Positions 5,201-29,859 of a stretch of 64,000 nt of DNA are shown here, piece by piece; position 1 is the stretch's first letter; each line of letters begins with the position of its first letter. The DNA is from Flavobacteriaceae bacterium (GTDB taxonomy: Bacteria; Bacteroidota; Bacteroidia; Flavobacteriales; Flavobacteriaceae): the NCBI GenBank assembly GCA_030683815.1, contig JAUXPJ010000019.1, positions 1 to 64,000 of the forward strand, given 5' to 3'. The translations under genes were made by a program, and so were the position numbers. The notes beneath the pieces are model-generated. The model made no database searches and was not told where the DNA came from. It saw only the letters and a list, made by a program, of their open reading frames with translations.

Positions 5201-6532
5201 TTATTTAACCAAAATTTTATACTCCCAAGGTTTTAATCTGATGGACAAAGTCTTACTTAAATTTTCATCTTTGGCTGTAAAATAGTTTTTAAAATTGCCT
5301 TCAGCATCTACTAAAACATCCATTTCCTGAGCTGTAAAATTACCGATAAATATCAGTTTGTCGCCTTCTTTTTCACGGGAAAATGCTAAGATATTTTCGT
5401 TATGATTGGTTTTGATACGTGTATAATCAGCCGGATTTTTACCGGTATGTAATGCTTTGGTACTTTTCTTCAACGTATTTAATTGTTTGTATACATCGTA
5501 GAATTTCCCTTTTTCCTTTATAATGGTGTCTTTTTCAAAGAAGCGCAATCTTTTATCCATATCATATTCTTCGCCGTTATAAATCAAAGGCATTCCGGGA
5601 ACGGTATATGACAGTGCCATAAATAATTCTACAGATTCTCCCATACGCTCTTTAACCGTTCCGTTCCAAGAATTTTCATCATGGTTAGAAACAAAGTGCA
5701 TCATGATATCATCTTTTTCCAGAGCGGTATCCATTTTATCCATATAAGCGTCAAATTCTGTTACTTTTTTCTTTCCTTGTGCTAACTGATTAAAAATATG
5801 ATGTCCTTCCCAAGCATATTGCATGTGAAATGCTTTTTTCAATAATTCCGGTTTTTCAGCTTCGGCCAACATCAATAAAGGTTTTGTTTTTTGCAATTCT
5901 GCGGATGCTTTTTCCCAAAAATCGGTTGGCACTTCAGCGGCAACATCGCATCTGAATCCGTCAACATTCAATTCAGTAACCCAGTATTTCATATCTTCAA
6001 TCATAGCAGTACGCAAACCTTCATTGGTAAAATCGAGTTCCGCTACATCAGTCCAATCAAAAGGAGCAATCATATTTCCTTTCTCATCTTTGGTATAATA
6101 TTCAGGGTGATTGGTAACCCAAGCATGATCCCAAGCAGTGTGGTTTGCTACCCAATCCAGAATAACGTACATGCCGTTTTCATGAGCGGTTTTTACCAAT
6201 GTTTTAAAATCTTCAACAGTTCCAAATTCATGATTGACACTTCTATAATCTTTAATAGAATAGTAACTTCCTAAACTTCCTTTTCTGTTTTTAATTCCGA
6301 TTTCGTGTATGGGCATCAGCCAAATAATATCTACACCCATTTCTTTTAATTTGGGGATGTCTTTAGTAAATGCATCGAAAGTTCCTTCCGGTGAATATTG
6401 ACGAATATTGGCTTCATAAATTACAGCTGATGCCATCATTTCATCAGTAACTACCGGAATATTTTGCGCCACTTCTTGTTTGCAAGCCATAAAAATGAGC
6501 GCCATGGTAAAAAAGAAAAATATTTTTTTCAT
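5201..6532 (-). CDS. GH13 alpha-amylase family lipoprotein
   Basis: A 443-residue GH13 enzyme with a lipoprotein signal (lipobox MACK, Cys at about residue 17). It would act on alpha-glucans or maltodextrins in the periplasm or at a membrane face. The four GH13 signature regions are visible: LDWVANH (region I), GFRCDVA with the nucleophile Asp (II), LMLAEAEKP with the acid/base Glu (III) and FVSNHDENSW with the transition-state Asp (IV). A short all-beta C-domain follows. It is the last gene of the leftward operon, 11 bases from the GH31 gene. Exact specificity (maltogenic, alpha-amylase or transglycosylase) cannot be read from sequence. Confidence 0.9.
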   Translation of the reverse strand: MKKIFFFFTMALIFMACKQEVAQNIPVVTDEMMASAVIYEANIRQYSPEGTFDAFTKDIPKLKEMGVDIIWLMPIHEIGIKNRKGSLGSYYSIKDYRSVNHEFGTVEDFKTLVKTAHENGMYVILDWVANHTAWDHAWVTNHPEYYTKDEKGNMIAPFDWTDVAELDFTNEGLRTAMIEDMKYWVTELNVDGFRCDVAAEVPTDFWEKASAELQKTKPLLMLAEAEKPELLKKAFHMQYAWEGHHIFNQLAQGKKKVTEFDAYMDKMDTALEKDDIMMHFVSNHDENSWNGTVKERMGESVELFMALSYTVPGMPLIYNGEEYDMDKRLRFFEKDTIIKEKGKFYDVYKQLNTLKKSTKALHTGKNPADYTRIKTNHNENILAFSREKEGDKLIFIGNFTAQEMDVLVDAEGNFKNYFTAKDENLSKTLSIRLKPWEYKILVK

Positions 6533-6543
6533 ATGTAAGTTAT

Positions 6544-8961: not shown

Positions 8962-8971
8962 ATTTATTTCA

Positions 8972-10819
8972 TTATTTTAATTCAATAATCATAGGCGATT
9001 TTGCCGGAATCACAAGAGTTCCTTTTGATAAATCAATTTGTTGTTCACTGAATAGTTCAAATCCTTTTGTATGTGGTTGGATACTTTCCTTAAATCGGTC
9101 TAATGAAATAGTCTGCTCTTTCTGACTGTTATTTAATACAATCATCACTTTTTCACTTTCATTGTATCTGAAATATACATACACATTATTTTCCGGAATG
9201 TAATGAGTTGTTTTTCCGTAGTGAATTACCGATTTTTCTTTTCTCCAATTGAACAGTTTGCCGGTAAAATTGAACAGTTCATTTTGCTTTGCCGTTCTTC
9301 CTTCTTGGGTAAATGCATTGATTGCATCACCTTCCCAGCCACCCGGAAAATCGCGTCTGATATCGCCATCGCCTAGATTTTTATCGCCGGTCATACCGAT
9401 TTCTGAACCGTAATAAATTTGTGGAATTCCTCTAATTGTAGTCAATAAAGTCATCGCCAATTGATATTTTTTAACATCACCGTTATACAGATGATGAATT
9501 CTTGGCGTATCATGATTTTCTGCAAATACCATGATGTTGTTAATATCAGGATACAAAAAATCGTTCACAAAATTTTCATAGACTTTTATCATTCCGTCAT
9601 TCCAATTCGGATTTTCTTCATTGAACACGGTCATGATAGCGTTATGTAAGGTAAAATCCATCACACTTGGTAAATTAGAATTATAACTTTGAATAGCGCC
9701 AATTTTACTGTCCTTTTGCCAATACGAAATTTGTGCTTGATCATACATCCATACTTCGCCGACAATGTTAAAGTTTGGATATTCTTCCATAATCGATTTT
9801 GTCCATTTGGCAATGGCTTCTTTATCATTGTAGGAATAAGTATCCACTCTCAATCCGTTTAAACCGGCAAATTCTATCCACCAAATGGCGTTCTGCGTTA
9901 AATAATTTAGCATCAATGGATTGCTCTGATTTAAATCGGGCATGGTAGAAACAAACCAACCATCCATACAATATTTTGCATCAATTTTAGAAGCATTTGG
10001 ATCGTATTGTGTCGTCATCCGATAATTGGAATTTGCATACCCCGGAAATTGATGAATCCATGTGTATGTAGGTAAATCATTCATCATCCAATGTTTTAAA
10101 CCCCAATGATTGGTTACATAATCCATGATGAGTTTCATGCCTCGTTGATGCATTTCATCGGCCAATCGTTTATAATCATCATTCGTCCCGTACCGAGGAT
10201 CTATTTTATACACATCCGATTGTGCATAAGTATGATACGAATATTTGTCATCGTTATCTTCTAACAACGGTGTGCTCCAAACGGCAGTGGCACCTAAAGA
10301 ATTGATATAATCTAAATTATTGATAATCCCTTGAATATCACCACCATGACGACCGCCAAGATATGCTCTATTCAATTTCTCCGTCAATTTTGGATGTGAA
10401 TCGTTAGCAGGATTTCCATTAGCAAAACGATCGGGCATCAATAAATAAACAACATCAGAACTGTCAAAACCTTTTCTTTTGGCTGAATTTGGCTCACGTT
10501 GTTTTAATTCATAGGTGTATTTCAATTCCTTTTTTCCTTTTTTGAGAAGGATATCAAAAGTGCCGGCAGTTGATTTTTCAAAATTTAAATCGATAAACAA
10601 ATAATTGGGATTTTCTGTTTTGATAATCCCTGTAATTTCAATTGATTTATTGGAAATTGAGGGCTGAAATGATGCGATGTCTTTCCCGTAAATCATTAAT
10701 TGAAGTTTAGGATTGTGCATTTCTGCCCACCAAAAAGGAGGTTCTATCCGTTCAATTTTCTGACTAAACATTAAAATGCTTGTTAAAAACAACACCATTA
10801 TTAATCCATTTTTTTTCAT
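8972..10819 (-). CDS. Neopullulanase/cyclomaltodextrinase-like GH13 (SusA-like)
   Basis: A 615-residue periplasmic GH13 enzyme. A signal peptide (ending LMFSQ) leads into an Ig-like N-domain beginning IERIEPPFWWAEMHNPKLQLMIYG, typical of the cyclomaltodextrinase N-domain, then the catalytic barrel. GH13 regions: MDYVTNH (I), GLRVDTYSYND with the nucleophile Asp (II), NIVGEVWM with the acid/base Glu (III) and FAENHDTPRI (IV). A C-terminal beta-domain ends the protein. This layout matches SusA-like neopullulanases that cut imported maltodextrins in the periplasm. It lies three bases from the GH65 gene and 11 from GH31, in one operon. Confidence 0.92.
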   Translation of the reverse strand: MKKNGLIMVLFLTSILMFSQKIERIEPPFWWAEMHNPKLQLMIYGKDIASFQPSISNKSIEITGIIKTENPNYLFIDLNFEKSTAGTFDILLKKGKKELKYTYELKQREPNSAKRKGFDSSDVVYLLMPDRFANGNPANDSHPKLTEKLNRAYLGGRHGGDIQGIINNLDYINSLGATAVWSTPLLEDNDDKYSYHTYAQSDVYKIDPRYGTNDDYKRLADEMHQRGMKLIMDYVTNHWGLKHWMMNDLPTYTWIHQFPGYANSNYRMTTQYDPNASKIDAKYCMDGWFVSTMPDLNQSNPLMLNYLTQNAIWWIEFAGLNGLRVDTYSYNDKEAIAKWTKSIMEEYPNFNIVGEVWMYDQAQISYWQKDSKIGAIQSYNSNLPSVMDFTLHNAIMTVFNEENPNWNDGMIKVYENFVNDFLYPDINNIMVFAENHDTPRIHHLYNGDVKKYQLAMTLLTTIRGIPQIYYGSEIGMTGDKNLGDGDIRRDFPGGWEGDAINAFTQEGRTAKQNELFNFTGKLFNWRKEKSVIHYGKTTHYIPENNVYVYFRYNESEKVMIVLNNSQKEQTISLDRFKESIQPHTKGFELFSEQQIDLSKGTLVIPAKSPMIIELK

Positions 10820-10821
10820 CT

Positions 10822-13119
10822 TTATAATGTTAATTCGTTAACTAATTCATATGATTTTCCATACACTTCAATAGTTACCGGAGTTCCAGTTTCATTAAAG
10901 AAGCTTGTTATATCTTGGTTTTTGTATATTTTCAATACAATTCCGTTATAATTAATTTTAAATGAATATGATTTCCATTCTTTTGGAATTTGAGGATTAA
11001 AAGTCAATTTCTTTTTAAACGTTCGCATTCCGCCAAAACCTTGCACTATAGACAACCAAGTGCCGGCCATACTGGTAATGTGTAAGCCCTCATGAACTTC
11101 ATTGTTGTAATCGTCTAAATCCAAACGAGCGGTGCGTAAATACATTTCGTATGCCTTATCCATTTTATTGATTTTAGCCGCTAAAATGGCATGAACACAA
11201 GGAGAAAGCGAGGATTCGTGAACAGTTATTGGTTCGTAAAAATCAAAATGACGGATAATTTCATCCGTAGAAAACTTATTTTCGAAGAAATAAATTCCTT
11301 GTAATACATCAGCTTGTTTGATATAACAAGAACGCAAAATTCTGTCCCAAGACCATTTTTGATTGATCGGGCGTTCTTCTTTTGGCAATTGATCAACCGG
11401 AATAATGTCTTTATCTAAAAATCCGCCTTGTTGTAAATAAACATTGTGTTTCTGACTGTACGGGAAATACATCAATTCAGCCACTTGCAGCCAAGCCGAA
11501 ACTTCGGTTTCCTCTAAGTTAGTTTTATCAATAATCCGTTTGTAATCTTCAGGGAATTTTTTCTTTACTTTCTTCAGATTTTTAACGGCATATTCTATAC
11601 ACCATTGTGCTAAATAATTGGTATAGAAGTTATTATTTACGTTATTCTCATATTCATTGGGACCGGTAACACCTAAAATAACATACTTATTTTTTTCAAC
11701 AGAAAAATTAGCACGTTGATGCCAGAAACGAGCCACTCCAATCATTACTTCTAAACCATATTCCGCTACATATTCTAAATCATTAGTATAATTAAGATAA
11801 TTGTAAATGGCATAAATTATGGCTCCGTTTCGGTGGATTTCTTCAAAGGTAATTTCCCATTCATTATGACATTCCTCACCATTCATGGTGACCATTGGAT
11901 ACAATGCAGCTCCGTTTTTAAAACCTAATTTTTCAGCATTTTCAATGGCTTTTTCTAAATGATTGAATCGATATTTTAATAAATTTCTGGCTACACTTTT
12001 ATCTTTGGTACTCATAAAAAATGGGATGCAATACGCTTCTGTATCCCAATAAGTGCTTCCGCCGTATTTTTCGCCGGTGAAGCCCTTTGGACCGATATTT
12101 AATCGGGTATCTTCTCCGGAATAGGTTTGATTGAGCTGAAAAATATTAAATCGGATGGCTTGTTGCGCTTTTAAATCACCTTCAATTACAATATCAGAAG
12201 TTTTCCAGATTTTTGTCCAATCTTCTTTTTGAAATTCCAATAACTGCTGAAAACCAATGCTGTTAATTACTTTAAAAAGCGATATGTTGTGGTTAACTAA
12301 CTCTTTTATTTCATGATTCATCGACTGAACATAACTCCCCAATTTACAAATAGTTATTTCTTCATTTTGTTGAACTGATGATTGATACGTAAACGTTATT
12401 TTTTTGGCTTCTATTTTTTTGATATAAGGAAGCAAAATTTCTTGTTGATTTTTTTCGAAAGAAATTCGCATTCCGGTGGCTACCTGAAATTCCGTTTTTA
12501 AGGTTTTAGAAACGATAAACGCCTGATTATCTTCCGCAACTGTTTCTAAAATTTTCCAAAATAATTCGTCGTAATTAGCATCTTCATTTTTGATACCTGC
12601 ATCTATATATGGGCTAAATTCAATTTCAGCACCGGCATTTAAAGGAGTAATCCTGTATTTTACGGCACCGATTTCATTGAACCGCAAACTTAAAAACCGT
12701 AAAGAATTTACTTTTACTTCCACTCCATTTTTCAATTCCGCAATGAAAGTACGTTGTAGCCAACCTTCTTTCATGTTGAGTTCGCGTTTAAATTCTGAAA
12801 CTTTACAATTGTTTAAATCGAGTTCTTCACCATTAATCTTGATGTTGATTCCAATCCAATTGGGCGCATTCAATACTTTGGCAAAATATTCGGGATAGCC
12901 GTTTTTCCACCATCCTACACGAGTTTTATCGGGATAATAAATCCCCGCAATATAACTTCCTTGAAAGGTATTTCCGCTGTATTTTTCTTCAAAATTGGCG
13001 CGTTGTCCCATGGCTCCATTTCCAATACTGAAGATACTTTCTGATGCAGTTAAAGTTGATGGATTAAAACCTTCTTCAATAATTGACCACGCGTTGGGCA
13101 CTATATAATCTTGATTCAT
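10822..13119 (-). CDS. GH65 maltose phosphorylase-like enzyme
   Basis: A 765-residue family 65 glycoside phosphorylase/hydrolase, without a signal peptide and so cytoplasmic. The catalytic acid Glu lies in GVTGPNEYENNVNNNFYTN, and the N-domain opening (SIFSIGNGAMGQRANFEE) is typical of the family. With phosphate it would convert maltose to glucose and beta-glucose 1-phosphate. The beta-phosphoglucomutase next door would take the second product, which makes maltose the most likely substrate. Kojibiose, trehalose or nigerose phosphorylases share this fold, so the specificity is an inference from the locus. Confidence 0.88.
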   Translation of the reverse strand: MNQDYIVPNAWSIIEEGFNPSTLTASESIFSIGNGAMGQRANFEEKYSGNTFQGSYIAGIYYPDKTRVGWWKNGYPEYFAKVLNAPNWIGINIKINGEELDLNNCKVSEFKRELNMKEGWLQRTFIAELKNGVEVKVNSLRFLSLRFNEIGAVKYRITPLNAGAEIEFSPYIDAGIKNEDANYDELFWKILETVAEDNQAFIVSKTLKTEFQVATGMRISFEKNQQEILLPYIKKIEAKKITFTYQSSVQQNEEITICKLGSYVQSMNHEIKELVNHNISLFKVINSIGFQQLLEFQKEDWTKIWKTSDIVIEGDLKAQQAIRFNIFQLNQTYSGEDTRLNIGPKGFTGEKYGGSTYWDTEAYCIPFFMSTKDKSVARNLLKYRFNHLEKAIENAEKLGFKNGAALYPMVTMNGEECHNEWEITFEEIHRNGAIIYAIYNYLNYTNDLEYVAEYGLEVMIGVARFWHQRANFSVEKNKYVILGVTGPNEYENNVNNNFYTNYLAQWCIEYAVKNLKKVKKKFPEDYKRIIDKTNLEETEVSAWLQVAELMYFPYSQKHNVYLQQGGFLDKDIIPVDQLPKEERPINQKWSWDRILRSCYIKQADVLQGIYFFENKFSTDEIIRHFDFYEPITVHESSLSPCVHAILAAKINKMDKAYEMYLRTARLDLDDYNNEVHEGLHITSMAGTWLSIVQGFGGMRTFKKKLTFNPQIPKEWKSYSFKINYNGIVLKIYKNQDITSFFNETGTPVTIEVYGKSYELVNELTL

Positions 13120-13149
13120 ATGTAGATTTTCATTTTTTTAATTGGCCAT

Positions 13150-13163
13150 CCCGATATATCGGG
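13150..13163. repeat. Perfect 14-bp palindrome in an operon gap
   Basis: CCCGATATATCGGG lies in the 125-base gap between pgmB and the GH65 gene. It may be an RNA processing hairpin or a remnant of a dispersed repeat. Confidence 0.5.
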
Positions 13164-13179
13164 ACAAGTCATGGAATAC

Positions 13180-13252
13180 GCCGGTTTGATTATAATTTAT
13201 TCAACAATTGTTTGTTTTTTTTCAAATATGGCTATTTCATCTTCTTAATTTC
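13180..13252. repeat. Intergenic repeat, copy A
   Basis: The segment begins GCCGGTTTGATTATAATTT and ends around GGCTATTTCATCTTCTTAA. It is related to copy B at 15481-15606, which begins GCCAGTTTGATTAAAATTT and has ATGGCCGTTTCATCTGTTA near its end. Copy B is longer by an internal stretch. Confidence 0.5.
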
Positions 13253-13901
13253 CAATCAATTTGTCCATAAATTCATTCGTCAAAAGCGAGGTACTTTCTA
13301 ACACAAAAGCGGCCTCATTTAAAATTTCTTTTTTCCCGATTCCGATGCTGAGCATTTTTGCGGTATTCGCTGCTTCAATTCCGGCGGCGGCATCTTCAAC
13401 AACAATACATTCATCGGGATTTCTTTTTAATAGTTTTGCCGCCAATAAAAAAACTTCCGGGTCTGGTTTGGCAGCAGAAACTTCATTTCCATCAACAACA
13501 GCATCAAAATAAAAAGTGATTTTTAATGTATCTAAGATTTGTTTTGCATTTTTACTGGCTGAACCTAAAGCAATTAATACGCCCTGTTTTTTTAAATGTT
13601 GAATCAGTGATTTAATATTAGGAAGAATATCATTTTCATCCATTTTTGTGATATACGAAAGATAATTTTCATTTTTTTCAATCATATATCGTTCTTTTTC
13701 ACTTTCGGAAAGAGAAACTCCACCAATTTCTAATAATATTTCAAGAGATTTGACTCTACTTACACCTTTCAACCGTTCATTTTGATCCGGTGTAAAATCA
13801 AATCCCAATTGATTGGCCAATTTTTTCCACGCCAAATAATGATATTTAGCGGTATCAACGATTACTCCATCCAAATCAAATATCACGGCTTTTTTAGGCA
13901 T
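13245..13901 (-). CDS. pgmB: Beta-phosphoglucomutase
   Basis: A 218-residue HAD-superfamily enzyme that interconverts beta-glucose 1-phosphate and glucose 6-phosphate in the cytoplasm. Motif I FDLDGVIVDT has the nucleophile Asp9 and the acid/base Asp11. A helical cap with LKGVSRVKSLE follows, then the LGSASKN motif (about residue 116) and the late acidic motif VVEDAAAGIEAA. These match beta-phosphoglucomutase rather than a generic phosphatase. Its start overlaps the end of the permease gene by eight bases, so the two are translationally coupled. It joins the GH65 phosphorylase to glycolysis. Confidence 0.92.
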   Translation of the reverse strand: MPKKAVIFDLDGVIVDTAKYHYLAWKKLANQLGFDFTPDQNERLKGVSRVKSLEILLEIGGVSLSESEKERYMIEKNENYLSYITKMDENDILPNIKSLIQHLKKQGVLIALGSASKNAKQILDTLKITFYFDAVVDGNEVSAAKPDPEVFLLAAKLLKRNPDECIVVEDAAAGIEAANTAKMLSIGIGKKEILNEAAFVLESTSLLTNEFMDKLIGN

Positions 13902-15387
13902 CTAAGGTATCTTTAACTCTCAGGGTTAATAATCCGGATAAAATCATAGCAAAACCACCGATAATCAGTGCGTAAACGGGTTCGCCGTTAAAAAATTGTT
14001 TTACAATAAAACCTAAAATGGTGGCAGCCACTAATTGAGGAATTACAATAAAAAAGTTAAAAACTCCCATAAAATAACCCATTTTACGAGCAGGTAATGC
14101 TCCGGCTAACATGGCGTACGGCATGGATAAAATACTGGCCCAAGCAATACCAACTCCTACCATTGACAGTAATAACATATTTGGATCTTTAATAAAATAG
14201 ATAGATATCAAACCCAATCCACCCAGCACTAAAGCTGCCAAATGGGTCATTTTTCTATTGGTTAATTTTGCAAATACCGGAAGTAAAAAAGCTACTAAAG
14301 CCGCTACTCCATTATAAACTGTAAAAAGTACTCCAACCCAATCAGCTCCTTCATTATACAATTTTGAAGTCGTATCATGTGTTCCATAAACATGACCTGT
14401 TACGGCTTGTGTGGTGTAAATCCACATTGAAAACAACGCAAACCACGAAAAAAACTGAACCCAAGCCAGTTGTTTCATCGTTGTGGGCATATTTAACAAA
14501 TCGGTGGTGATAGTAACAAAACTATTTTCAACAGTTCTTTTTCGAAGGATAGAAGCCAGCACAAACATAAGTCCTGCAACCACGATCCCTACAACCAAAA
14601 TATATAATTTATTATCGAGTTCTTCTTGGCTGATGAATAAAATTCCCAACAAACCAATTAAAATCATTCCAAAACCGACTCTTTGTTGTTTTTTTTCATC
14701 AATTGATATTCCTTCTACTTCTTTTACCGATTCTTTTTCTGAATCTTCAAAAGCATTTAATTCTTCAGGCGTATATTCTTTAGATTTAAAAACAGTCCAC
14801 ATGACAGCTGTAAAAAAGACGAATGCGCCTATATAAAATGACCATTTAACAGAATCAGGTATGATTCCCTCCGGTGCTGTATTGCTGATTTCAAAAACAT
14901 TCGTCAATACATACGGAAGTGCAGAGCCAACAACAGCGCCTATTCCAATGAAAAAACTTTGCATCGAAAATCCTAAAGTACGTTGTTCAGAAGAAAGATT
15001 ATCTCCAACAAAAGCACGAAATGGTTCCATAGTGATGTTGATAGAAGCATCCATCATCCACAACATTCCGGCCGCCACCCACAAGGAAGGAGAGTTGGGC
15101 ATAAAAATTAAAGCGATAGAAGACAAAATGGCTCCAATCAGAAAGAATGGTCTTCTTCTGCCAAGACGTGTCCATGTTCTATCACTTAAATATCCAATAA
15201 TGGGTTGAACTATAAGTCCGGTAACGGGAGCCGCAATCCATAAAATGGGTATATCTTCAACATTAGCTCCCAATGTTTCAAATATTCTGGAAGTATTGGC
15301 ATTTTGTAATGCAAATCCGAATTGAATTCCTAAGAAACCGAAACTCATGTTCCATATTTCCCAAAAACTTAGTTTCCTTTTTTTCAT
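13894..15387 (-). CDS. Maltose/maltodextrin permease, MFS (SLC45/GPH-like)
   Basis: A 497-residue inner-membrane major facilitator with about 12 spans and a soluble, acidic loop in the middle (about residues 205-240). The signature loop LSDRTWTRLGRRRPF after the second span is typical of the sugar:cation symporters placed beside SusC/D maltose loci in Flavobacteriia. It would bring maltose made in the periplasm into the cell. It is the first gene of the leftward operon and overlaps pgmB. Substrate assignment is by locus and family, not by binding residues. Confidence 0.85.
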   Translation of the reverse strand: MKKRKLSFWEIWNMSFGFLGIQFGFALQNANTSRIFETLGANVEDIPILWIAAPVTGLIVQPIIGYLSDRTWTRLGRRRPFFLIGAILSSIALIFMPNSPSLWVAAGMLWMMDASINITMEPFRAFVGDNLSSEQRTLGFSMQSFFIGIGAVVGSALPYVLTNVFEISNTAPEGIIPDSVKWSFYIGAFVFFTAVMWTVFKSKEYTPEELNAFEDSEKESVKEVEGISIDEKKQQRVGFGMILIGLLGILFISQEELDNKLYILVVGIVVAGLMFVLASILRKRTVENSFVTITTDLLNMPTTMKQLAWVQFFSWFALFSMWIYTTQAVTGHVYGTHDTTSKLYNEGADWVGVLFTVYNGVAALVAFLLPVFAKLTNRKMTHLAALVLGGLGLISIYFIKDPNMLLLSMVGVGIAWASILSMPYAMLAGALPARKMGYFMGVFNFFIVIPQLVAATILGFIVKQFFNGEPVYALIIGGFAMILSGLLTLRVKDTLDA

Positions 15388-15911: not shown

Positions 15912-16937
15912 CTAGAATGTTTTTTTTGTTGAATTTCTAATTTTTAAATCGACGTCAATTACTTTAGTTTGGAATGGAAAATCAGAATCTTTAGATTCAA
16001 TTCTGTTTATTAAGAGCTCAATGGCTTTTTCACCCATTTCATGTCCATGCTGTGCTAATGTTGACAATGATGGATTTGAAAATTGAGATATATATCCATC
16101 AGTAAAGCCGATAAATGACATTTCTTCCGGTATTTTAATTCCTTTATCTTGAGCTAATTTCATGGCAGTTGCCGCATAAATCTCATTCACAGCAAAAATA
16201 CCGTCGGGTCTATCCGGAAGATTGATTACTTTTTGGATTTGAGCCGTAATATCATTTTTTTCATTTACCTGAATGATGTATTCTGATGGTACAGCGATAT
16301 TATAATCATTGATCGCTTTTAAAAATCCTTTTTTACGTTCCAATCCAACGGATACAAAATCGGGGGTTGTAATAATAGCTAATTTCTTACAGCCTGTTTT
16401 AATAAGGTATTCCGTGGCTTTGTATCCACCTCCAAAATCATCAACTACTACTTTATCACAATTAATTTTTGGATGAACGCGATCAAAAAGGACTAATGGA
16501 ACTTCTTCTTTTAAATCTTCAAAATGTCTAAAATCGGATAATTCCTGAGTTTCTTTGGCAATAGAAACCAGAAAACCATCCACACTTCCGCCCGCTAACA
16601 TTTCAATATTCAACACTTCTTTTTGGTAGGATTCATCAGAAAAACACACCATTACATTATATCCTCTTTCATTAGCCCCGTGTTCTATACCGCTGATGAC
16701 TGTTGAAAAAAAATGATGCACAATTTCAGGAATAATCACGCCAATAACCATACTTCGCTGATTTCTCAATCGCAAAGCCAAACTATTGGGTTTGTAATTG
16801 TACATTTTTGCAAAAGCTTTTACCTTTTCACGTGTTTCTACGCTAATTTCATGACTGTCACTTAACGCTTTTGAAACGGTTGAAGTAGATACTCCTAATT
16901 CTTTGGCTATTTTTTTAAGGGTAATTTTTGCTCCCAT
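15912..16937 (-). CDS. LacI-family transcriptional regulator of the maltodextrin locus
   Basis: A LacI/PurR-type regulator of 341 residues from the chosen start. The N-terminal helix-turn-helix is ITLKKIAKELGVSTSTVSKALS with the hinge helix region NSLALRLR, followed by a periplasmic-binding-like effector domain (MVIGVIIPEIVHHFF and onward). An open frame 13 codons longer exists (ATG at 16974-16976), but a TATATTTG promoter element lies inside that extension (16957-16964), so MGAKITLKK at 16937 is preferred. It sits divergent to susC and beside the catabolic operon, so it probably responds to maltose or a glucose derivative and controls both arms. Confidence 0.9.
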   Translation of the reverse strand: MGAKITLKKIAKELGVSTSTVSKALSDSHEISVETREKVKAFAKMYNYKPNSLALRLRNQRSMVIGVIIPEIVHHFFSTVISGIEHGANERGYNVMVCFSDESYQKEVLNIEMLAGGSVDGFLVSIAKETQELSDFRHFEDLKEEVPLVLFDRVHPKINCDKVVVDDFGGGYKATEYLIKTGCKKLAIITTPDFVSVGLERKKGFLKAINDYNIAVPSEYIIQVNEKNDITAQIQKVINLPDRPDGIFAVNEIYAATAMKLAQDKGIKIPEEMSFIGFTDGYISQFSNPSLSTLAQHGHEMGEKAIELLINRIESKDSDFPFQTKVIDVDLKIRNSTKKTF

Positions 16938-16956
16938 ATTTTTCTGTTGACTTTTA

Positions 16957-16964
16957 CAAATATA
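16957..16964 (-). promoter_or_regulatory. -7 element of the lacI-type gene
   Basis: It reads TATATTTG on the minus strand, 20 bases before the preferred start codon. Its position decides the start of the regulator gene. Confidence 0.6.
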
Positions 16965-16984
16965 GAAGATTTTCATAAAGTTAT

Positions 16985-17130: not shown

Positions 17131-20094
17131 ATGAGAAATTTTAGAACATTTTTATTGAGCATGCTATTATTAGTACCGCTTAGTTTGTTTGCACAACGAA
17201 CCATTACGGGAAAAGTAATAGATAAAACTTCAGGAGCTGAACTTCCGGGAGTTAATGTAATTATTAAGGGGACTAAAAAAGGAACCGTGACTGATTTTGA
17301 TGGAAAATTTTCATTAGGTGATGTTAAAAACGGTGATGTTTTAGTGATCTCTTATGTAGGATATACAGCTACAGAAATTGCTGTTACCAATAACCAGAAT
17401 TATACCGTTTCTTTATCCGAAAGCACGCTTGCTTTAGACGAAGTGGTAATTATTGGTTATGGACAAGTACGTAAAAAAGATGCAACCGGTTCTGTAACCA
17501 CTATTGGTTCAGAAGATCTTAACAAAGGGCCTATTGTATCTGCCCAACAATTACTAACGGGTAAATCTGCCGGGGTACAAATCACATCAGGCGGTGGTTC
17601 TCCCGGAGCTAACAGCACCATTAGAATTAGAGGAGGTTCTTCTTTAATTGCTACTAATGATCCTTTGATTGTAATTGATGGAATTCCGGTAAATAATGAA
17701 GGTGTAGCTGGTTTAAGCAACCCATTAAGTGTTGTTAATCCAAATGATATTGAAAGTTTTACCGTTTTAAAAGATGCTTCTGCTGCCGCTATTTACGGTT
17801 CAAGAGCATCCAACGGAGTTATTATCATCACCACTAAAAAAGGAAAAGCTACCGATGGGTTAAAAGTTAACTACAATGGTAACTTTACGGTGGGTACTGT
17901 AGTTGATAAAATAGATGTCTTAAGTCCAGATGCTTACAGACAATTGGTGAATGATAAAGGCACTGCTGCTCAAAAACTTTTATTAGGCGCAGAAAATACT
18001 GATTGGCAAGATGAAATATACCAAACGGCTTTAGGAACTGACCATAACGTTACTATGAATGGAAGTGAAGTTGGATTAAACTATAGGGCTTCTTTAGGCT
18101 ATTCTAACCAAAATGGTATTTTATTGACAGACAATCTTCAAAGAACATCCTATTCAGTTTCATTGAATAAATTATTTTTTGATAACCATTTAAAAATTGA
18201 TTTAAACTCAAAAACTGCCGTTATCAAAAATCGTTTTGCAGACAATGGTGCTATTGGTTCTGCTGTAGCTATGGATCCAACCCAAGCGGTGAGAATAGAT
18301 GATCAGCGTTATGGTGGATATTTCCAATGGTTACAAACCAATAACTTACCGATTGCTATTGGAGCCACCAAGAACCCCGTAGCGTTGTTAGAGCAACAAT
18401 TGAATAAATCATCAGTTACCAGAACTATTTCTAATATTCAATTGGATTATAAATTCCACTTCTTACCTGATCTAAGAGCTAATTTGAATTTAGGGCTTGA
18501 CAAGTCTCAAAGTAACGGAAGTAATTTAGTTTCTGACAAATCTGCCAATACTGTTTTAACTGATGGCACTAACTTAGGAAACTATCGCACTTACGGAGAA
18601 AAAAGAGAAGATAAATTATTGGATTTCTATTTAAATTATGTAAAAGAAATTGAAAGTTTAAAAACTAAAGTAGATATCATGGGAGGTTATTCTTATCAAG
18701 ATTTTTCAGGAAATGGTTTCAATGTAAATGACATTCAGAATCCGGTCTTAACTTTAGAAAACAACTATGCTATTGATCCTGAGAACTTACAATCTTATTT
18801 TGGACGTGTGAATTTAACCTTTGCTCAAAAATACTTATTGACACTTACCTACAGAACTGACGGAACATCGCGTTTCTATTATTCCGGTGAGTCTTGGGGT
18901 AAATTCCCTTCTGCAGCATTTGCATGGAAAATTAATGAAGAAAACTTTATGGCAAATTCTAAAGTTATTTCAGATTTAAAAATGCGTTTAGGCTGGGGTA
19001 TTACCGGTCAACAAGCCATTCCTGTAGCATTTCCGGCTTTACCTCTTTATAACATCAGTACTTTAACGGCACAATACCAATTTGGAAATACGTTTTTACA
19101 AACGGCAAGACCTCAACCCTATAATAATTTAATTAAATGGGAAGAAACAACTACCTATAATGCCGGAGTAGATTTCGGATTCTTTAACAATAGATTGAAT
19201 GGAACTGTTGACGTATATTACAGAGAAACCAAAGATTTATTAAACTTCGTCCCTTATCCGGGTGGTTCTAATTTATCAAACGCCGGTTATGCCAACATTG
19301 GAAATTTAGTAAATCAAGGTATTGAATTGACTATGGATGCAACTCCTGTAAAAACAGATAACTTAACTTGGAATATTGGATTTAATGTAACCTATAATGA
19401 TTCTGAAATTACCAAGCTTACGCTCAATGATGCTTCAACCTATGAAGGAATTGAAACAGGCGGAATACAAGGTGGCGTTGGAAATACCATTCAAAGACAT
19501 TCCGTAGGTTACGCGCCAAGCACTTTCTTCTTGTACCAACAGGTTTACAATGCTGATGGAACACCCGCTGAAGGCGTTTATGTTGATAGAGATGGAGATG
19601 GAGCCATTACCAACGCCGATAAATACAGAAGTGAAAAACCTGCAGCCGATTATTTCTTCGGATTCAACTCCAGCTTAAATTATAAAAATTTCGATTTTAG
19701 CATGGCGTGGAGAGGAAGTATCGGTAACTTTATGTACAATAACGTAGATTCGGATCGTGGTTATTTAAAAAACACTTTACGTTACGAAAACGTCATTAAC
19801 AACAGCGTTCAAAATCTGTTAGAATCTAATTTTGTTGATGGTGGAACTAACAGATATTTATCTGATTATTACTTACAAGATGCTTCTTTTGTTAAATTAG
19901 ATAATGTAACAGTAGGTTATACTTTTAACAATGCTTTCAAAGGTGTTAAAAACATGAAAGTATACGGTTCTGTTCAAAACGTGTTAACCATTACCAAATA
20001 TGACGGATTAGATCCTGAAATTTATGGTGGTATAGACTATAATTTATATCCTAGACCAAGAACATTCTTATTAGGAGTTAATCTTGATTTTTAA
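17131..20094 (+). CDS. susC: SusC-like TonB-dependent maltodextrin receptor
   Basis: A 987-residue SusC/RagA-family outer-membrane transporter. It has a signal peptide ending LFAQ and a carboxypeptidase-D-like regulatory domain (ITGKVIDKTSGAELPGVNV, about residues 24-95). Then come a TonB-box-like DEVVIIGYG (about residues 104-112), a plug with RIRGGSSLIATNDPLIVIDG, and a 22-strand-type barrel ending in aromatic LGVNLDF. It imports maltodextrins through the outer membrane with energy from TonB-ExbBD, capped by the SusD partner encoded 18 bases downstream. Its position behind two LacI-type operators indicates sugar induction. Confidence 0.93.
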   Translation: MRNFRTFLLSMLLLVPLSLFAQRTITGKVIDKTSGAELPGVNVIIKGTKKGTVTDFDGKFSLGDVKNGDVLVISYVGYTATEIAVTNNQNYTVSLSESTLALDEVVIIGYGQVRKKDATGSVTTIGSEDLNKGPIVSAQQLLTGKSAGVQITSGGGSPGANSTIRIRGGSSLIATNDPLIVIDGIPVNNEGVAGLSNPLSVVNPNDIESFTVLKDASAAAIYGSRASNGVIIITTKKGKATDGLKVNYNGNFTVGTVVDKIDVLSPDAYRQLVNDKGTAAQKLLLGAENTDWQDEIYQTALGTDHNVTMNGSEVGLNYRASLGYSNQNGILLTDNLQRTSYSVSLNKLFFDNHLKIDLNSKTAVIKNRFADNGAIGSAVAMDPTQAVRIDDQRYGGYFQWLQTNNLPIAIGATKNPVALLEQQLNKSSVTRTISNIQLDYKFHFLPDLRANLNLGLDKSQSNGSNLVSDKSANTVLTDGTNLGNYRTYGEKREDKLLDFYLNYVKEIESLKTKVDIMGGYSYQDFSGNGFNVNDIQNPVLTLENNYAIDPENLQSYFGRVNLTFAQKYLLTLTYRTDGTSRFYYSGESWGKFPSAAFAWKINEENFMANSKVISDLKMRLGWGITGQQAIPVAFPALPLYNISTLTAQYQFGNTFLQTARPQPYNNLIKWEETTTYNAGVDFGFFNNRLNGTVDVYYRETKDLLNFVPYPGGSNLSNAGYANIGNLVNQGIELTMDATPVKTDNLTWNIGFNVTYNDSEITKLTLNDASTYEGIETGGIQGGVGNTIQRHSVGYAPSTFFLYQQVYNADGTPAEGVYVDRDGDGAITNADKYRSEKPAADYFFGFNSSLNYKNFDFSMAWRGSIGNFMYNNVDSDRGYLKNTLRYENVINNSVQNLLESNFVDGGTNRYLSDYYLQDASFVKLDNVTVGYTFNNAFKGVKNMKVYGSVQNVLTITKYDGLDPEIYGGIDYNLYPRPRTFLLGVNLDF

Positions 20095-20112: not shown

Positions 20113-22023
20113 ATGAAAAATAATTGGAAAAATATTTTCTTCATAAGTACTTTGGTAGGTTTATTTACATTTACCTCATGTACAGATGATTTAAAAATAA
20201 CTCCGGATGATGTCAATAACATTGCCTCTGAAGAGTTTTACAAAGACCCTAATTCCTACAAGCAAGTCCTTGCAAAATTATATGCAGGATTGGCGATTAG
20301 CGGACAAGAAGGTCCCGCAGGAAGACCTGATATTACCGGAATCGACGAAGGTTTCAGTCAATATTTAAGACAATATTGGTTAGCTCAAGAAGTTACAACT
20401 GATGAAGCTGTAATTGGATGGGCAGATGGCAGCTTACCTGATTACCACGAACATGACTGGAATGAAAACAATGAATTTGTAAGAGCTTTATACAATAGAA
20501 TTCTCTATCAAATAACGGTTGCCAATGAATTCTTACGGCAAACTTCGGATGCTAAATTAGACGGACGTGGAGTAACAGGTACATTACGTTCTGATATAGC
20601 AGTGTATAGAGCAGAAGCGCGATTCTTAAGAGCTTTAAGTTATTGGCATGCCATTGATTTATTTGGAAAATTCTCTTTTGTAACTGAAAAAGATGCTCCC
20701 GGATATTTCTTCCCGGAACAAAAAGACAGAACTTTCCTATTTAATTTTGTTGAAACTGAACTAAAAGATATTGATGCAACTTTATTAGCACCAAAATCTA
20801 ATGAATATGCAAGAGCCGATAAAGCTGCTGCTTGGATGATTTTAGCTAAATTGTATTTAAACGCAGAAGTTTATACCGGTACTCAAAGAAATACCGACGC
20901 CGTTACTTACAGCAAAAAGGTAATTGATGCAGGCTATACCGTTACTCCGCAGTATAAAAATTTATTTTTAGCTGATAACCATACCGCAAGTGGAGTAATT
21001 TTCCCAATTGCTTTTGACGGATTGAGAACACAAACCTGGGGCGGCACCACCTTCTTAATTCATGCTGCAGTAGGTGGAAACATGTCTCCCGCAGATTTTG
21101 GAATCAACGGAGGTTGGGGTGGTACCCGTACAACGAGTGCCTTAGTCAATAAATTTGATTTAAATCTAGACCTTGCTCCTGCAAACAATGCCATTGGAGC
21201 CGCAACTCTATGGGGACTTGTAGGAGATGCTACAGCTAATGGATGGGGAGGTCCGGATATGGTGATGCGTCAAACTGCAACTGCTAATGTTTTTGCTATT
21301 TTCGCTAAACTAAATGATGGAGAATTCAAATTCAGATATAACCATGATTGGGGTAATAATTATGGAGATGATGGTGCCAATGGAACCATTGAACCTGGAG
21401 GAGCCAATATCAAAATTAAAAAAGGAACCTATAAAATTACTTTAAACTTAACAAACAACACTTATTTGGTTGAAGTAATAAAAGACTTAAGAGCTGATTT
21501 CCATTCTGATGGTCAAAAATTAGAAATCGAAAGTATCAGTACTTTTACAGACGGTTATGCGGTACGTAAATTTAAAAATATAACTAAAACAGGAGTGGCA
21601 GGTTCTGATGCTTCCGGTAATTTTACAGATACTGATTTCCCCATGTTTAGAATTGAAGATGCTTATTTAATGTATGCTGAAGCTACTGTAAGAGGCGGTG
21701 CCGGTGGAAATATTGGTTTAGCTGTTGGTTATATCAATCAATTAAAACAAAGAGCTTTTGGTGATGCTAAAGGAAATATATCGTCATCAGATTTAACGTT
21801 GAACTTTATCTTAGATGAAAGAGCACGTGAATTGTATTGGGAATGTCACAGACGTACAGATTTAATTCGTTATGGCAGATTTACAACCGGTACCTACCAA
21901 TGGCCTTGGAAAGGTGGTATAGCTGCAGGAGTTGCTACTTCGGCACACAGAAATCTGTTTCCAATTCCATCATCTGATTTGAATGCAAATCCAAACCTAA
22001 CACAAAATCCAGGTTATAATTAA
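20113..22023 (+). CDS. susD: SusD-like starch-binding lipoprotein with inserted SusE-type module
   Basis: A 636-residue RagB/SusD surface lipoprotein (lipobox TFTSC). It has the helical SusD fold, with RAEARFLRALSYWHAIDLFG in the TPR-like part and DFPMFRIEDAYLMYAEA near the C-terminus. Residues about 358-458 do not belong to the SusD fold. They are a complete copy of the roughly 90-residue module repeated in SusE downstream, with WGLVGDATANGWGGPD, GEFKFRYNHDW and NYGDDGANGT. The module sits after the TTSALVNKF segment and before FHSDGQKLEIESI, where canonical SusD has a short loop. SusD closes the SusC pore and binds starch; the insertion should add a second glucan site. Confidence 0.92.
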   Translation: MKNNWKNIFFISTLVGLFTFTSCTDDLKITPDDVNNIASEEFYKDPNSYKQVLAKLYAGLAISGQEGPAGRPDITGIDEGFSQYLRQYWLAQEVTTDEAVIGWADGSLPDYHEHDWNENNEFVRALYNRILYQITVANEFLRQTSDAKLDGRGVTGTLRSDIAVYRAEARFLRALSYWHAIDLFGKFSFVTEKDAPGYFFPEQKDRTFLFNFVETELKDIDATLLAPKSNEYARADKAAAWMILAKLYLNAEVYTGTQRNTDAVTYSKKVIDAGYTVTPQYKNLFLADNHTASGVIFPIAFDGLRTQTWGGTTFLIHAAVGGNMSPADFGINGGWGGTRTTSALVNKFDLNLDLAPANNAIGAATLWGLVGDATANGWGGPDMVMRQTATANVFAIFAKLNDGEFKFRYNHDWGNNYGDDGANGTIEPGGANIKIKKGTYKITLNLTNNTYLVEVIKDLRADFHSDGQKLEIESISTFTDGYAVRKFKNITKTGVAGSDASGNFTDTDFPMFRIEDAYLMYAEATVRGGAGGNIGLAVGYINQLKQRAFGDAKGNISSSDLTLNFILDERARELYWECHRRTDLIRYGRFTTGTYQWPWKGGIAAGVATSAHRNLFPIPSSDLNANPNLTQNPGYN

Positions 22024-22037
22024 TAAAAATTAGAACG

Positions 22038-23351
22038 ATGAAAAATATATTCAACAAATTATTACTATTGGCAGGTCTTGCATTTTTTGTAGGAGCCTGC
22101 GAAAAAGATGATGATTTTGCAACATTAAATCCAGATGCAGTTTTAACTGCTACCGTTAATAAACCGACTGTAGTATTAGTTAAAGATGATTTAGGCAAAG
22201 ATGCTTTAACAATTACTTGGACAGCTCCGGAATATGGTTTTAGCGCTGCCCCGGTTTATAGAATTTTACTTGATGTAAAAGGAAATAACTTTAGCAAGGC
22301 TTATGCTGTAACGGTTGGTACCAATCTGCAAAAAACATTTAAAACTGAAGAACTCAATAAAATACTATTGAACTTAGGTATTAAAGCTAAAACAGCCACT
22401 GTACTTGATGTAAAAGTAGAATCTGTTTTAAGTCCATCAACCATTATCAGCTCAAGTATTTTAGCACTTAATGCTACTGCTTATACTGATATTTTAGACT
22501 TATCAACTCCTTGGGGTGTTGTAGGAAGTGCCACTCCAGGTAGCTGGAACGGTCCAGATATTCCTTTCTATCTGACATCGTCTGCCAACATTCTAGTTGC
22601 CTATGCAACTCTTATTGACGGAGAAATTAAATTCAGAATGAATAACAGTTGGGCTGTTAATTATGGTGATGATGGCGCTAATGGATCTTTAGAAGCAGGA
22701 GGAGCTAATATAGCCGTTACTGCCGGTACTTATAAAATAACCTTTAATACTACAGATCTAACCTATACAATTGAACCATTAACTTGGGGAATTGTAGGAA
22801 GTGCAACTACCAACGGATGGGACGGACCAGACATGAAGTTAACTTACGACCCATTTTCAGATACTTGGAGAGCTGTTGTTAAATTGAGTGAAGGAGAAAT
22901 TAAATTCCGTAAAAACAACAGTTGGGATGTAAACTATGGTGATACCGGAGCTGACGGAACTTTAGAAGCCGGAGGTGCTAATATTGCTGTAACTGCAGGG
23001 TGGTATTTAGCTACCGTTAATTTCACTAAACTTGAATACACCTTAGAAAGAACCAATGTTTGGGGTATTGTAGGTTCTGCAACGCCTAACGGTTGGGGTG
23101 GTCCAGATACTAAATTTACACCAGATTTTAGCAGAGATGGATATTTCTTATTAAAAGGAGTTACCATGATAGATGGAGAATTCAAATTCCGACAAAATGA
23201 TGATTGGGGTGTAAATTATGGAGATAACGGCAATGACGGCACTTTAGAAGCCGGCGGAGCCAATATTCCTATTACTGCCGGAGTATATGATTTTGAACTC
23301 GATTTCAGTACACCAGCGACTCCAAAATATACAAAAGTTAAAAAATCATAA
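22038..23351 (+). CDS. susE: SusE/SusF-like outer-membrane starch-binding lipoprotein
   Basis: A 437-residue surface lipoprotein (lipobox VGAC). It has an N-terminal Ig-like SusE domain (about residues 30-155) followed by three tandem starch-binding modules starting at Trp159, Trp250 and Trp342. Each shows WGxVGSATxxxWxGPD, GExKFRxNxxW and NYGDxGxxGxLEAGGANI. The modules are of the SusE/SusF type that hold alpha-glucans on the cell surface without cutting them. The start is 14 bases after the susD stop, and a terminator follows the stop. It has three such modules rather than the two of the best-known SusE. Confidence 0.9.
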   Translation: MKNIFNKLLLLAGLAFFVGACEKDDDFATLNPDAVLTATVNKPTVVLVKDDLGKDALTITWTAPEYGFSAAPVYRILLDVKGNNFSKAYAVTVGTNLQKTFKTEELNKILLNLGIKAKTATVLDVKVESVLSPSTIISSSILALNATAYTDILDLSTPWGVVGSATPGSWNGPDIPFYLTSSANILVAYATLIDGEIKFRMNNSWAVNYGDDGANGSLEAGGANIAVTAGTYKITFNTTDLTYTIEPLTWGIVGSATTNGWDGPDMKLTYDPFSDTWRAVVKLSEGEIKFRKNNSWDVNYGDTGADGTLEAGGANIAVTAGWYLATVNFTKLEYTLERTNVWGIVGSATPNGWGGPDTKFTPDFSRDGYFLLKGVTMIDGEFKFRQNDDWGVNYGDNGNDGTLEAGGANIPITAGVYDFELDFSTPATPKYTKVKKS

Positions 23352-23411: not shown

Positions 23412-26400
23412 ATGAAGGCACTCATTCTCTTATTAATTTTATGTACGGTAAGCCTCTTAAATGCTCAGGTTACCACGACCCCAACCTTACCTACAACGCA
23501 AGATCTCATAACGGTAACCTTCAACGCAACCGGAACTCCCTTAGAAGGATATGCCGGAGATGTTTATGCTCATACCGGAGTTACCGTAAACGGCCTTAGA
23601 TGGCAAAATGTGATTGGAACTTGGGGAAATAATTTGGTTCAACCAAAATTAACCAGAACTGCTGCCAATACATACACCCTAATCATCAGCCCGAATGTCT
23701 ATACCTATTACAGCGTTCAAACCACATCAACCATTACTGAACTGAATTTTGTATTTAGAGCTTCTGCCGGAAGTCCGCAAACTGCTGATATATTTACTCC
23801 CATTTATCCTGCCGGATTAAATGTTTCTTTTACCAATCCACTTCAAAACAGTGTTTTCAATCTAAATCAATCGGTTACCATTACCGCAGAATCCTCTGCC
23901 AACGCCAATCTCGAGTTATTTATCAATGGCGTTTCACAACAAACTGCTGCGAATACCAAAACTATTTCAAAAAATTATACTTTTACCACATCAGGTACTC
24001 ACACCTTAAAAGTGACCGCCAATGACGGAACCTCAACCAAAGAGCAAACCATCAGCGTTTATGTAAAAACACCTACCCAAACAGCTGCAAAACCAATCGG
24101 CTTAAAATATGGCATCAATAAAAATCCTGACAACTCTGTAACATTTTTACTAAAAGCTCCCTTAAAAAATGATGTATTAATTATGGGTGATTTTAGCAAT
24201 TGGAATTTAAACTCCAATTATCAACTATTTAAAGATGGTGAAGATTTTTGGCTTACCATTCCGGGTTTAGATACCAATACAGAATATGCTTATCAATATT
24301 TGGTTGATTATACTGTAAAAATTGCCGATCCTTATTCAGAAAAAATATTGGATCCTTGGACTGATCAATACATCAAACCGGGAAATTATCCCAACTTAAA
24401 AGCATACCCAACCGATTTAACTGCCGGTTATGTTTCTACTTTCAAGATAAATGAAGAAACCTACACTTGGAATGTGAGCAATTTCATCAGACCAGCCCAA
24501 AACAATTTAGTGATTTATGAATTGTTCTTTCGCGATTTTACAGAAACAGATTCGTTTAATGAAGCCATCACCAAGTTAGATTATCTAAAAAAATTAGGTG
24601 TAAATGCCATCGAATTAATGCCGATCAACGAATTTGAAGGCGCCGACAGTTGGGGTTATAATCCCGCACTTTATATGGCTTTAGACAAATCTTATGGCAC
24701 CAAAAATGATTTTAAAAAATTTGTTGATGCTTGCCATCAACGCGGAATTGCTGTTTTAGCTGATGTTGTTTTTAATCATTCATACGGGCAATCGCCCTTG
24801 CTTCAAATGTATTGGGACAGCACACTCAATAAACCGGCAGCCAATAATCCGTGGTACAATCAAAATCATAATTTTGTCGATAATACAAACGCACAGTGGG
24901 GATACGATTTTAATCACGAATCGGCTTATACAAAAGCATTTTTTAAAGATGTTTTAAGCTATTGGATGACCGAATATAAAATTGATGGATTTCGATTTGA
25001 CTTTACCAAAGGCATGACAAACACCTTATATTATGGAACCGATAATTGGGCCAGTGCTTATGATGCTTCTAGGATTGTCATCTTAAAAAATTATGCAGAT
25101 CATGTTTGGAATCACAATACAACAAACAAACCTTATGTTATTTTTGAACATTTATCAGACAATCCCGAAGAAAAAGAATTAGCCGATTACGGTATTATGA
25201 TGTGGGGAAATCTCAATTATAGTTATGCTCAAAATACCATGGGATTTTCTTCCGGAGCTGATATTTCTTGGATTTCACACAAAACCAGAGGATGGAATTT
25301 TCCTCATGTGGCTGGATATATGGAAAGTCATGATGAAGAACGTTTGATGTATAAAAATTTAACTTCAGGCAATGCCACTCAAAGTCCGACTTACAGTGTA
25401 AAAGAGTTGAAAACCGCTTTAGCGCGTCAAGAATTGGCCGGTCTGTTTTTTCTGACGATTCCCGGACCTAAAATGATTTGGCAATTTGGCGAATTGGGCT
25501 ATGATTTCTCTATCAATCGATGTGAAGATGGCACCACCAATAATAATTGCAGATTATCAAGAAAACCCATCAAATGGGATTATTTTAATGATGTAAATCG
25601 CAAACATATTTACAGCACTTGGGCTACTTTAAATGCTTTCAGACAACAATTAGCCGTTTTTCAAACAACCGATTTTACTTTAAATGTATCCTCTTTAACC
25701 AAATCAATTCAGTTAAGACATACTTCTATGGATGTGGTGATAATCGGTAATTTTGATGTGGTAAATAAAGCCATCAATCCGCAGTTTACCAAAACCGGAA
25801 CTTGGTACGAATATTTTACCGGAGAAGTAAAAACGGTTACCAATACTACTGCTGCCATCGATTTAAAACCGGGAGAATACAGATTATATGCTACCGTAAA
25901 ATTAGCCGATCCATTCGGCGGAACTGCTGCTGATGACAGTGATGGTGATGGCGTAAATGACGCGATTGATTTATGTCCGAATACTTTATTGGGAACACCT
26001 GTAAATTCAAGCGGATGTCCTATTTTTAGCTTACCTTCAACCAACTTCAGATTGGAAGTTACCAATCCGACTTGTCAGGGAAAAAATAACGGAATCTTAA
26101 AAATTACCACAACTGAAAATCACAGCTATATTGCCACAGTTAACGGTGTAGATTATCCTTTTACCACAACATTAACGGTTTCTAATTTATCGCCAAAAAC
26201 CTATCCAATTTGCATCAAAATACCGGCACAGAACAATTATACCCAATGTTTTGAGTTTGTCGTTACAAATCCGCCCGGTTTAAGCGGCCGAACTTCTTTT
26301 GAATCCATAGGAAATAAACCAACTGCAAATATTATTATCGAGAGCGGAACGGCGCCATTTACGATAGAAATTAACGGAAAATCAATTTTTGAAACATATG

Positions 26401-26741
26401 ATACAAATATCAATGTAACTATCAAAAATGGCGATTTGGTAGAAGTAAAATCGAGTGTGAGTTGTGAAGGTAAATTGAGTCAGCAAATAGATTTATTAAA
26501 TGAAGTAACCATTTATCCAAATCCAACTACAGATTATGTCGAATTATTTATACCGGATTATATTGGAAAAAGTAGTGCGATAGTTCAATTGTTTAATCAT
26601 AATGGAAAAGTAGTTTTTAGTAATGAATTCTCAATTATTAATCAACATATTAAACTTCCAATGAAATATTTAGCAAGTGGTTTATATATTATCCGTGTTC
26701 AGCTGGTTAAATCTTTAACCTTTAAAGTGATAAAACAATGA
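23412..26741 (+). CDS. Large secreted GH13 alpha-amylase with T9SS sorting domain
   Basis: An 1109-residue secreted amylase. After a signal peptide (ending LLNAQ) come a beta-sandwich with VYAHTGVTVNG (about residues 20-125) and an Ig-like domain. A CBM48-like domain with VLIMGDFSNWNLN and the GH13 barrel (about residues 380-790) follow. GH13 motifs are LADVVFNH, GFRFDFTKG (nucleophile Asp), YVIFEHL (acid/base Glu) and MESHDEERL. A calcium-binding thrombospondin type 3-like repeat (DDSDGDGVNDAIDLCP) and a Por/type IX C-terminal domain (VTIYPNPTTDYVEL to the end) complete it. It should be exported through T9SS and attached to or released from the surface, playing the SusG role of cutting starch outside. 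Confidence 0.92.
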   Translation: MKALILLLILCTVSLLNAQVTTTPTLPTTQDLITVTFNATGTPLEGYAGDVYAHTGVTVNGLRWQNVIGTWGNNLVQPKLTRTAANTYTLIISPNVYTYYSVQTTSTITELNFVFRASAGSPQTADIFTPIYPAGLNVSFTNPLQNSVFNLNQSVTITAESSANANLELFINGVSQQTAANTKTISKNYTFTTSGTHTLKVTANDGTSTKEQTISVYVKTPTQTAAKPIGLKYGINKNPDNSVTFLLKAPLKNDVLIMGDFSNWNLNSNYQLFKDGEDFWLTIPGLDTNTEYAYQYLVDYTVKIADPYSEKILDPWTDQYIKPGNYPNLKAYPTDLTAGYVSTFKINEETYTWNVSNFIRPAQNNLVIYELFFRDFTETDSFNEAITKLDYLKKLGVNAIELMPINEFEGADSWGYNPALYMALDKSYGTKNDFKKFVDACHQRGIAVLADVVFNHSYGQSPLLQMYWDSTLNKPAANNPWYNQNHNFVDNTNAQWGYDFNHESAYTKAFFKDVLSYWMTEYKIDGFRFDFTKGMTNTLYYGTDNWASAYDASRIVILKNYADHVWNHNTTNKPYVIFEHLSDNPEEKELADYGIMMWGNLNYSYAQNTMGFSSGADISWISHKTRGWNFPHVAGYMESHDEERLMYKNLTSGNATQSPTYSVKELKTALARQELAGLFFLTIPGPKMIWQFGELGYDFSINRCEDGTTNNNCRLSRKPIKWDYFNDVNRKHIYSTWATLNAFRQQLAVFQTTDFTLNVSSLTKSIQLRHTSMDVVIIGNFDVVNKAINPQFTKTGTWYEYFTGEVKTVTNTTAAIDLKPGEYRLYATVKLADPFGGTAADDSDGDGVNDAIDLCPNTLLGTPVNSSGCPIFSLPSTNFRLEVTNPTCQGKNNGILKITTTENHSYIATVNGVDYPFTTTLTVSNLSPKTYPICIKIPAQNNYTQCFEFVVTNPPGLSGRTSFESIGNKPTANIIIESGTAPFTIEINGKSIFETYDTNINVTIKNGDLVEVKSSVSCEGKLSQQIDLLNEVTIYPNPTTDYVELFIPDYIGKSSAIVQLFNHNGKVVFSNEFSIINQHIKLPMKYLASGLYIIRVQLVKSLTFKVIKQ

Positions 26742-29130: not shown

Positions 29131-29158
29131 TCAATAAAGTAATTAAAAAAAGCAAACT

Positions 29159-29850: not shown

Positions 29851-29859
29851 AAAAAAAAT

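Follow-up and report, generated by a model that had tools for sequence, protein, structure and literature searches.

Gene content of the locus

The window analysed here (the whole stretch of DNA, 64 kb in length) derives from a 2.5 Mb genome of Flavobacteriaceae type and carries an alpha-glucan utilisation locus. Consistent with membership of the SusD family, susD is located immediately downstream of susC and genes encoding alpha-glucan enzymes lie close by. The relevant features, in window positions, are as follows.

5201..15387, minus strand: remaining alpha-glucan genes, encoding GH13, GH31, cyclomaltodextrinase, GH65, HAD and MFS transporter proteins (Pfam)
15912..16976, minus strand: LacI-family regulator (PF00356, PF13377)
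17131..20094, plus strand: susC, TonB-dependent transporter and partner of SusD (TIGR04056, 787 bits)
20113..22023, plus strand: susD, putative lipoprotein of the SusD/RagB family, 636 aa, with an internal module (open reading frame; PF07980, PF16411)
21163..21483, plus strand: inserted stretch of SusD, residues ~351-457, missing from insertless SusDs
21211..21474, plus strand: SusE/SusF (X25-like) module proper, residues 367-454 (PF16411; BLAST against SusE; AlphaFold; Foldseek)
22038..23351, plus strand: susE, N-terminal SusE domain (PF14292 at residues 23-127) and three modules (module HMM)
22512-22775, 22782-23048 and 23058-23309, plus strand: the three susE modules (module HMM)
23412..26741, plus strand: large GH13 protein of the alpha-amylase family, with a sorting domain for type IX secretion at its C-terminus (PF00128, PF18962)

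Judging from gene context, the HAD protein is probably of the beta-phosphoglucomutase type. The N-terminus of SusD is hydrophobic and ends in a cysteine (TSC-TDD), which reads as a candidate lipoprotein signal. The susCDE-GH13 run ends, also on the plus strand, with a small protein (26738-27424) that resembles a lipoprotein and has two domains of Ig/Fn3 type. Downstream of the locus, at 28294-30975, a methyltransferase whose start is rich in Cys is encoded together with a small phosphatase-like protein and a membrane transporter; the three look like a set for arsenic resistance (arsM, arsC-like and acr3).

A SusE/SusF-type module nested within SusD

SusD is encoded by a single open reading frame of 636 codons. 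The SusD_RagB family (PF07980) spans residues 295-635 with a score of 120 bits (cut-off 23.1) and is interrupted by a match to SusF_SusE (PF16411) at residues 369-446. The latter scores 28.9-32.8 bits against a cut-off of 27.5, with E-values of 1.7e-6 in the whole SusD and 1.1e-7 for the module by itself, and covers 88 of the 167 profile positions, corresponding to one module. The NCBIfam SusD model NF033071 scores 405 bits, under its cut-off of 725; this model is strict and fits close relatives of BtSusD, and the sequence places the protein in the SusD family, alpha-glucan type, an assignment that makes no claim of orthology to BtSusD. In BLAST comparisons the module is 49-54% identical to the three adjacent SusE modules (E 6e-33, 2e-26 and 2e-24; 49-56% in a codon alignment), and these modules and SusD itself are the only strong matches to the inserted stretch in the genome. 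The SusE-type module reported within SusD in a preliminary description of this DNA is therefore borne out by the profile match and by its similarity to SusE.

When 399 Flavobacteriaceae genomes were searched, most of the others with a match proved to have insertless SusDs, whose alignment covers residues 1-349, breaks off and resumes over 458-635; the crystal structures of BtSusD (3ck7) and its B. vulgatus homologue (3jys) likewise align as two blocks flanking the insert. The place of insertion is variable in length, being occupied by a turn of 3 residues in 3jys and a loop of ~50 residues in BtSusD. Two congener genomes contain the insert within intact reading frames. A frame error or assembly join is ruled out by these frames and by the occurrence of the insert in about 28 genera, so that the earlier reading of a loop insertion with SusD sequence on both sides stands. 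Its limits, given in that description as residues ~358-458, are revised: an insert is indeed present there, but it extends over residues ~351-457, with the folded module at 367-454.

Between congeners the insert evolves with an omega of 0.14-0.15, a rough estimate since dS is ~1.4 and near saturation, compared with 0.05-0.07 for the SusD core. The insert is thus under purifying selection, with weaker constraint than the core, and evolves 2-3 times faster. The profile and BLAST matches, the two-block alignments, the intact congener frames and this selection confirm that the insert is neither a chance match nor a frame error.

Predicted fold and ligand-site residues

When the module alone was modelled with AlphaFold, using 14 SusE modules as the alignment, pLDDT values were mostly 91-98. 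The model of the whole SusD has a mean pLDDT of 69.5, with 82-93 in the module and partly poor values elsewhere, the worst being in the C-terminal 60 residues; its top structural matches are 3jys and BtSusD (3ck9). In a Foldseek search of the PDB, the six best matches to the module (E 0.006-0.39, probability 0.77-1.00) were 7rpy, 2wan, 4fem, 5x5s, 9us4 and 9us6, representing the X25-2 domain of Ruminococcus bromii Sca5, a B. acidopullulyticus pullulanase, BtSusE with alpha-cyclodextrin, the AmyP starch-binding domain and a maltohexaose-forming amylase (two chains). All six agree in being starch- or pullulan-related proteins or binding domains; their E-values are modest, none being < 0.001, and matches beyond these six are noise. 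The module is accordingly predicted to adopt an X25-like beta-sandwich fold (7rpy, 2wan and 4fem; best E 0.006), and a failure to fold, which would have told against the preliminary description, is not what the models indicate.

The invariant positions among 36 one-module inserts are W367, K406, F407, R408, W413, G418, I433, G438 and Y440, with W378 conserved in 97%; the conserved W, K, R and N positions hold over about 28 genera. SusE/SusF modules have been termed X25, and in Sca5X25-2a the residues W509 and W555 are two of four platform tryptophans that bind maltooligosaccharide (PMC9112005). The W367-W413 spacing of 46 residues equals that of W509-W555, an equivalence based on spacing rather than on residue-level structural alignment. 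The conservation of Trp367, Trp378, Lys406, Arg408 and Trp413 (97-100%), aromatic and basic residues such as a glucan site would be expected to have, favours an extra alpha-glucan site on the lid.

In the body of the protein, D78, R86, W103, W309 and W335 align with D73, R81, W98, Y296 and W320 of BtSusD (an offset of 24 being applied to the BtSusD numbering), which we take to be ligand residues, with W320 the stacking residue. The insert begins ~16 residues, and the module 32 residues, past Trp335. Because the main-site residues align, the ordinary SusD glycan site seems to be kept, the module being an addition to it.

Distribution of one-module and tandem forms

The survey of SusD homologues that the preliminary description had proposed reveals a patchy distribution. 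Full-length one-module SusDs are found in 34 of the 178 Flavobacteriaceae genomes with a match (399 sampled), representing about 28 genera and including Lutibacter litoralis, and several of the genera with the insert also include insertless species. One genome encodes two starch-type SusDs, with the insert in one and absent from the other. A class-wide sample, followed by family samples around the matches, identified two other Bacteroidia families (coded f3 and f63) in which two tandem modules occupy the same site in SusD frames of ~725-770 aa; this form is present in 34 of 63 matching f63 genomes by our count. Loci from the other families sampled, among them named ones of Chitinophaga and Bacteroides, are insertless. 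Insert boundaries are nearly identical in all carriers.

In the tandem SusDs (L130-L132, L161-L173, L175-L178 and L180; ~730 aa) the C-terminal module is closer to the Flavobacteriaceae module, and the N-terminal one, which is diverged, is in many cases devoid of the tryptophans. Tryptophans are lost in several two-module SusDs (L173, L175, L176 and L180), and binding therefore need not apply to every member.

Among Flavobacteriaceae SusEs of either two or three modules, the three-module form is commoner alongside the insert (23/33 with versus 7/54 without; Fisher p 1e-7, with no correction for kinship). In Lutibacter litoralis (L018:8315-9127) all three SusE modules contain AYNDWGATPD in place of ATPNGWGGPD despite belonging to different positional groups, possibly as a result of concerted change. 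Other SusE/SusF-like layouts comprise one protein with four modules, or separate proteins of ~540-580 aa with three or four.

A possible second glucan site on the SusC lid

In the reading that we prefer, SusD would be a surface lipoprotein forming the lid over the SusC pore of the alpha-glucan locus, with the X25-like module in one of its surface loops providing a second alpha-1,4-glucan-binding site on the moving lid. Glucan binding, the placement of the module relative to SusC and any benefit are here proposed from sequence and models. Together with SusE and its three modules, and with the principal SusD site, the module may hold a chain of maltodextrin, starch or glycogen close to the transporter mouth, and a chain held beside the pore would be present at higher local concentration or bound with greater avidity. 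As a lid on SusC, SusD swings open and shut, and surface binding proteins keep long chains by the pore (PMC7618045). Since single SusF modules bind with a Kd of ~300 uM, any gain would have to arise from the module acting jointly with the main site and with SusE; counting against binding, lone X25 modules of Sas20/Sca5 showed none (PMC9112005). Also weighing against this reading are the faster evolution of the insert, the tryptophan losses in several two-module SusDs and the middling quality of the whole-SusD model.

The principal rival, which we consider improbable but by no means negligible, is a mainly structural or protein-protein role, whereby the module docks SusE, a surface amylase or SusC, or limits movement of the lid, with glucan binding secondary. 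Utilisomes of surface lipoproteins do form on the SusC lip (PMC7618045). The loss of aromatic residues in some tandem-module SusDs and the co-occurrence of the insert with three-module SusE, uncorrected for kinship, are also compatible with such a role. B. thetaiotaomicron SusE reportedly aids uptake independently of starch binding (title of Foley 2018), in which case modules of this type may act via protein contacts. Against this, the one-module inserts show no variation at W367, W413, K406 and R408 and almost none at W378, and the fold matches are starch- or pullulan-related.

Several known systems resemble this arrangement in part. BtSusD (PDB 3ck7-3ckc) and the B. vulgatus protein have the same fold, are homologous to the full length of SusD flanking the insert and share the aligned main-site residues, but have no module. 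The SusE/SusF modules (PF16411; BtSusE, 4fem) belong to the same family and share the predicted fold; they form a C-terminal tandem in a separate lipoprotein, whereas here the module is nested within SusD. The nearest precedent is CBM58 of the SusG amylase, also a starch-binding module nested in a Sus surface protein (PMC11267923), although its host is an enzyme. The tandem X25 modules of R. bromii Sas20/Sca5 (7rpy) provide the best fold match and share a four-Trp platform between modules (PMC9112005), which by analogy is a possible model for the two-module SusDs. In contrast to SusD, these are scaffold or amylosome proteins of a Gram-positive host and do not form a transporter lid. Alpha-glucan SusDs of marine Flavobacteriia come from the same type of locus, with SusE, GH13, GH31 and GH65, and are divided in the main text of Beidler 2024 (PMC11093988) into looped and open forms, with a loop of ~17 aa; that text gives no inserted module. 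We found no description of a SusD with a nested SusE/SusF module in the open-access literature that was searched.

Origin and history of the module

According to the reading preferred here, the module would have been gained in one or a few events from the SusE/SusF module family, long before the genus arose, and would afterwards have undergone frequent loss and/or exchange between SusD genes, with a tandem pair in two other families. Phylogenetic analysis of 41 modules with IQ-TREE converged from two seeds on one best tree (lnL -4118.28). Origins were tested by running complete, constrained IQ-TREE searches for smaller sets; one-clade tests with quick trees are unreliable, since the free search missed better trees. 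Placing the one-module SusD inserts in one clade costs only 0.4 log-likelihood units (p-AU 0.49-0.61), compatible with a single origin.

The SusD core gives a different picture. With the insert removed, a single clade of insert carriers is rejected (delta lnL 880), and in a larger core tree the starred branches require the state of the insert to have changed 8 times or more. The module data in turn reject the core topology (delta 65, p-AU 0.001), excluding the possibility that the insert simply shares the history of the core, although they do not reject keeping together the clade to which the window belongs (p 0.109). The core topology nonetheless suits them far better than trees with shuffled labels do (delta 137-184). 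The insert is old and patchy, and as the SusD cores that carry it are not one clade, recurrent loss of an ancient module, its exchange between genes, or both, is implied. We read this history as mostly vertical descent with many losses and some exchange among susD genes, components that the data do not separate cleanly.

The presence of insert-bearing cores in several clades could alternatively reflect several independent insertions of SusE/SusF modules into different SusD lineages at an insertion-tolerant loop, and both the excursion of BtSusD at the same place and the difference between one-module and two-module forms are in keeping with this. We regard it as unlikely, given the negligible cost of the one-module clade, the near-identical insert boundaries throughout and the failure to reject a grouping of all SusD-borne modules (p 0.67, from one of the less reliable quick trees).

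That the module is a recent local copy from susE, as the preliminary description had supposed, is highly unlikely and for this genus refuted. In its favour are the resemblance of the SusD module to the SusE modules (49-56% identity) and the distance of 1 kb between them. Against it, a tree of the modules, the test then suggested, rejects joining the SusD modules of the genus to its SusE module 1, 2 or 3 (costs of 34, 52 and 67 units; p-AU 0.003-0.004, 0.0008 and ~0), congener SusD modules are closer (68-74% identity), third positions at identical residues are only 51-63% identical to those of the susE modules, and the insertion is shared by about 28 genera, with the tandem form in two further families. 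In relatives of Lutibacter, a grouping of the SusD module with SusE module 1 is not rejected (constraint lutE1, p-AU 0.38), and the module may derive anciently from an ancestor resembling SusE module 1 or have been converted later in these relatives.

Implications for SusCD import

Taken as a whole, the explanation that the module is a second alpha-1,4-glucan site on the SusC lid, gained anciently and subsequently lost or exchanged, has in our estimation a probability of about two in three. A broader and more speculative proposal, which we put forward tentatively and hold to be distinctly less probable, is that lids of this kind constitute an unrecognised class of SusD, old within the Bacteroidia, in which one or two X25 modules are nested at a constant position, the cassette having been moved or lost between SusD genes. 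The lid might then act as a multivalent starch clamp that partly replaces SusE, and two modules in tandem might close around helical alpha-glucan in the manner of Sas20/Sca5.

For annotation, trees and site comparisons of alpha-glucan SusDs from Flavobacteriia may mix module-bearing and module-free forms. SusD is usually seen as a single glycan site on a hinged lid, with separate lipoproteins adding binding. A lid bearing a SusE-type module of its own, which some SusDs have at this site and other, otherwise similar ones lack, and which is doubled in other families, represents a natural experiment on the contribution of surface modules to SusCD import.
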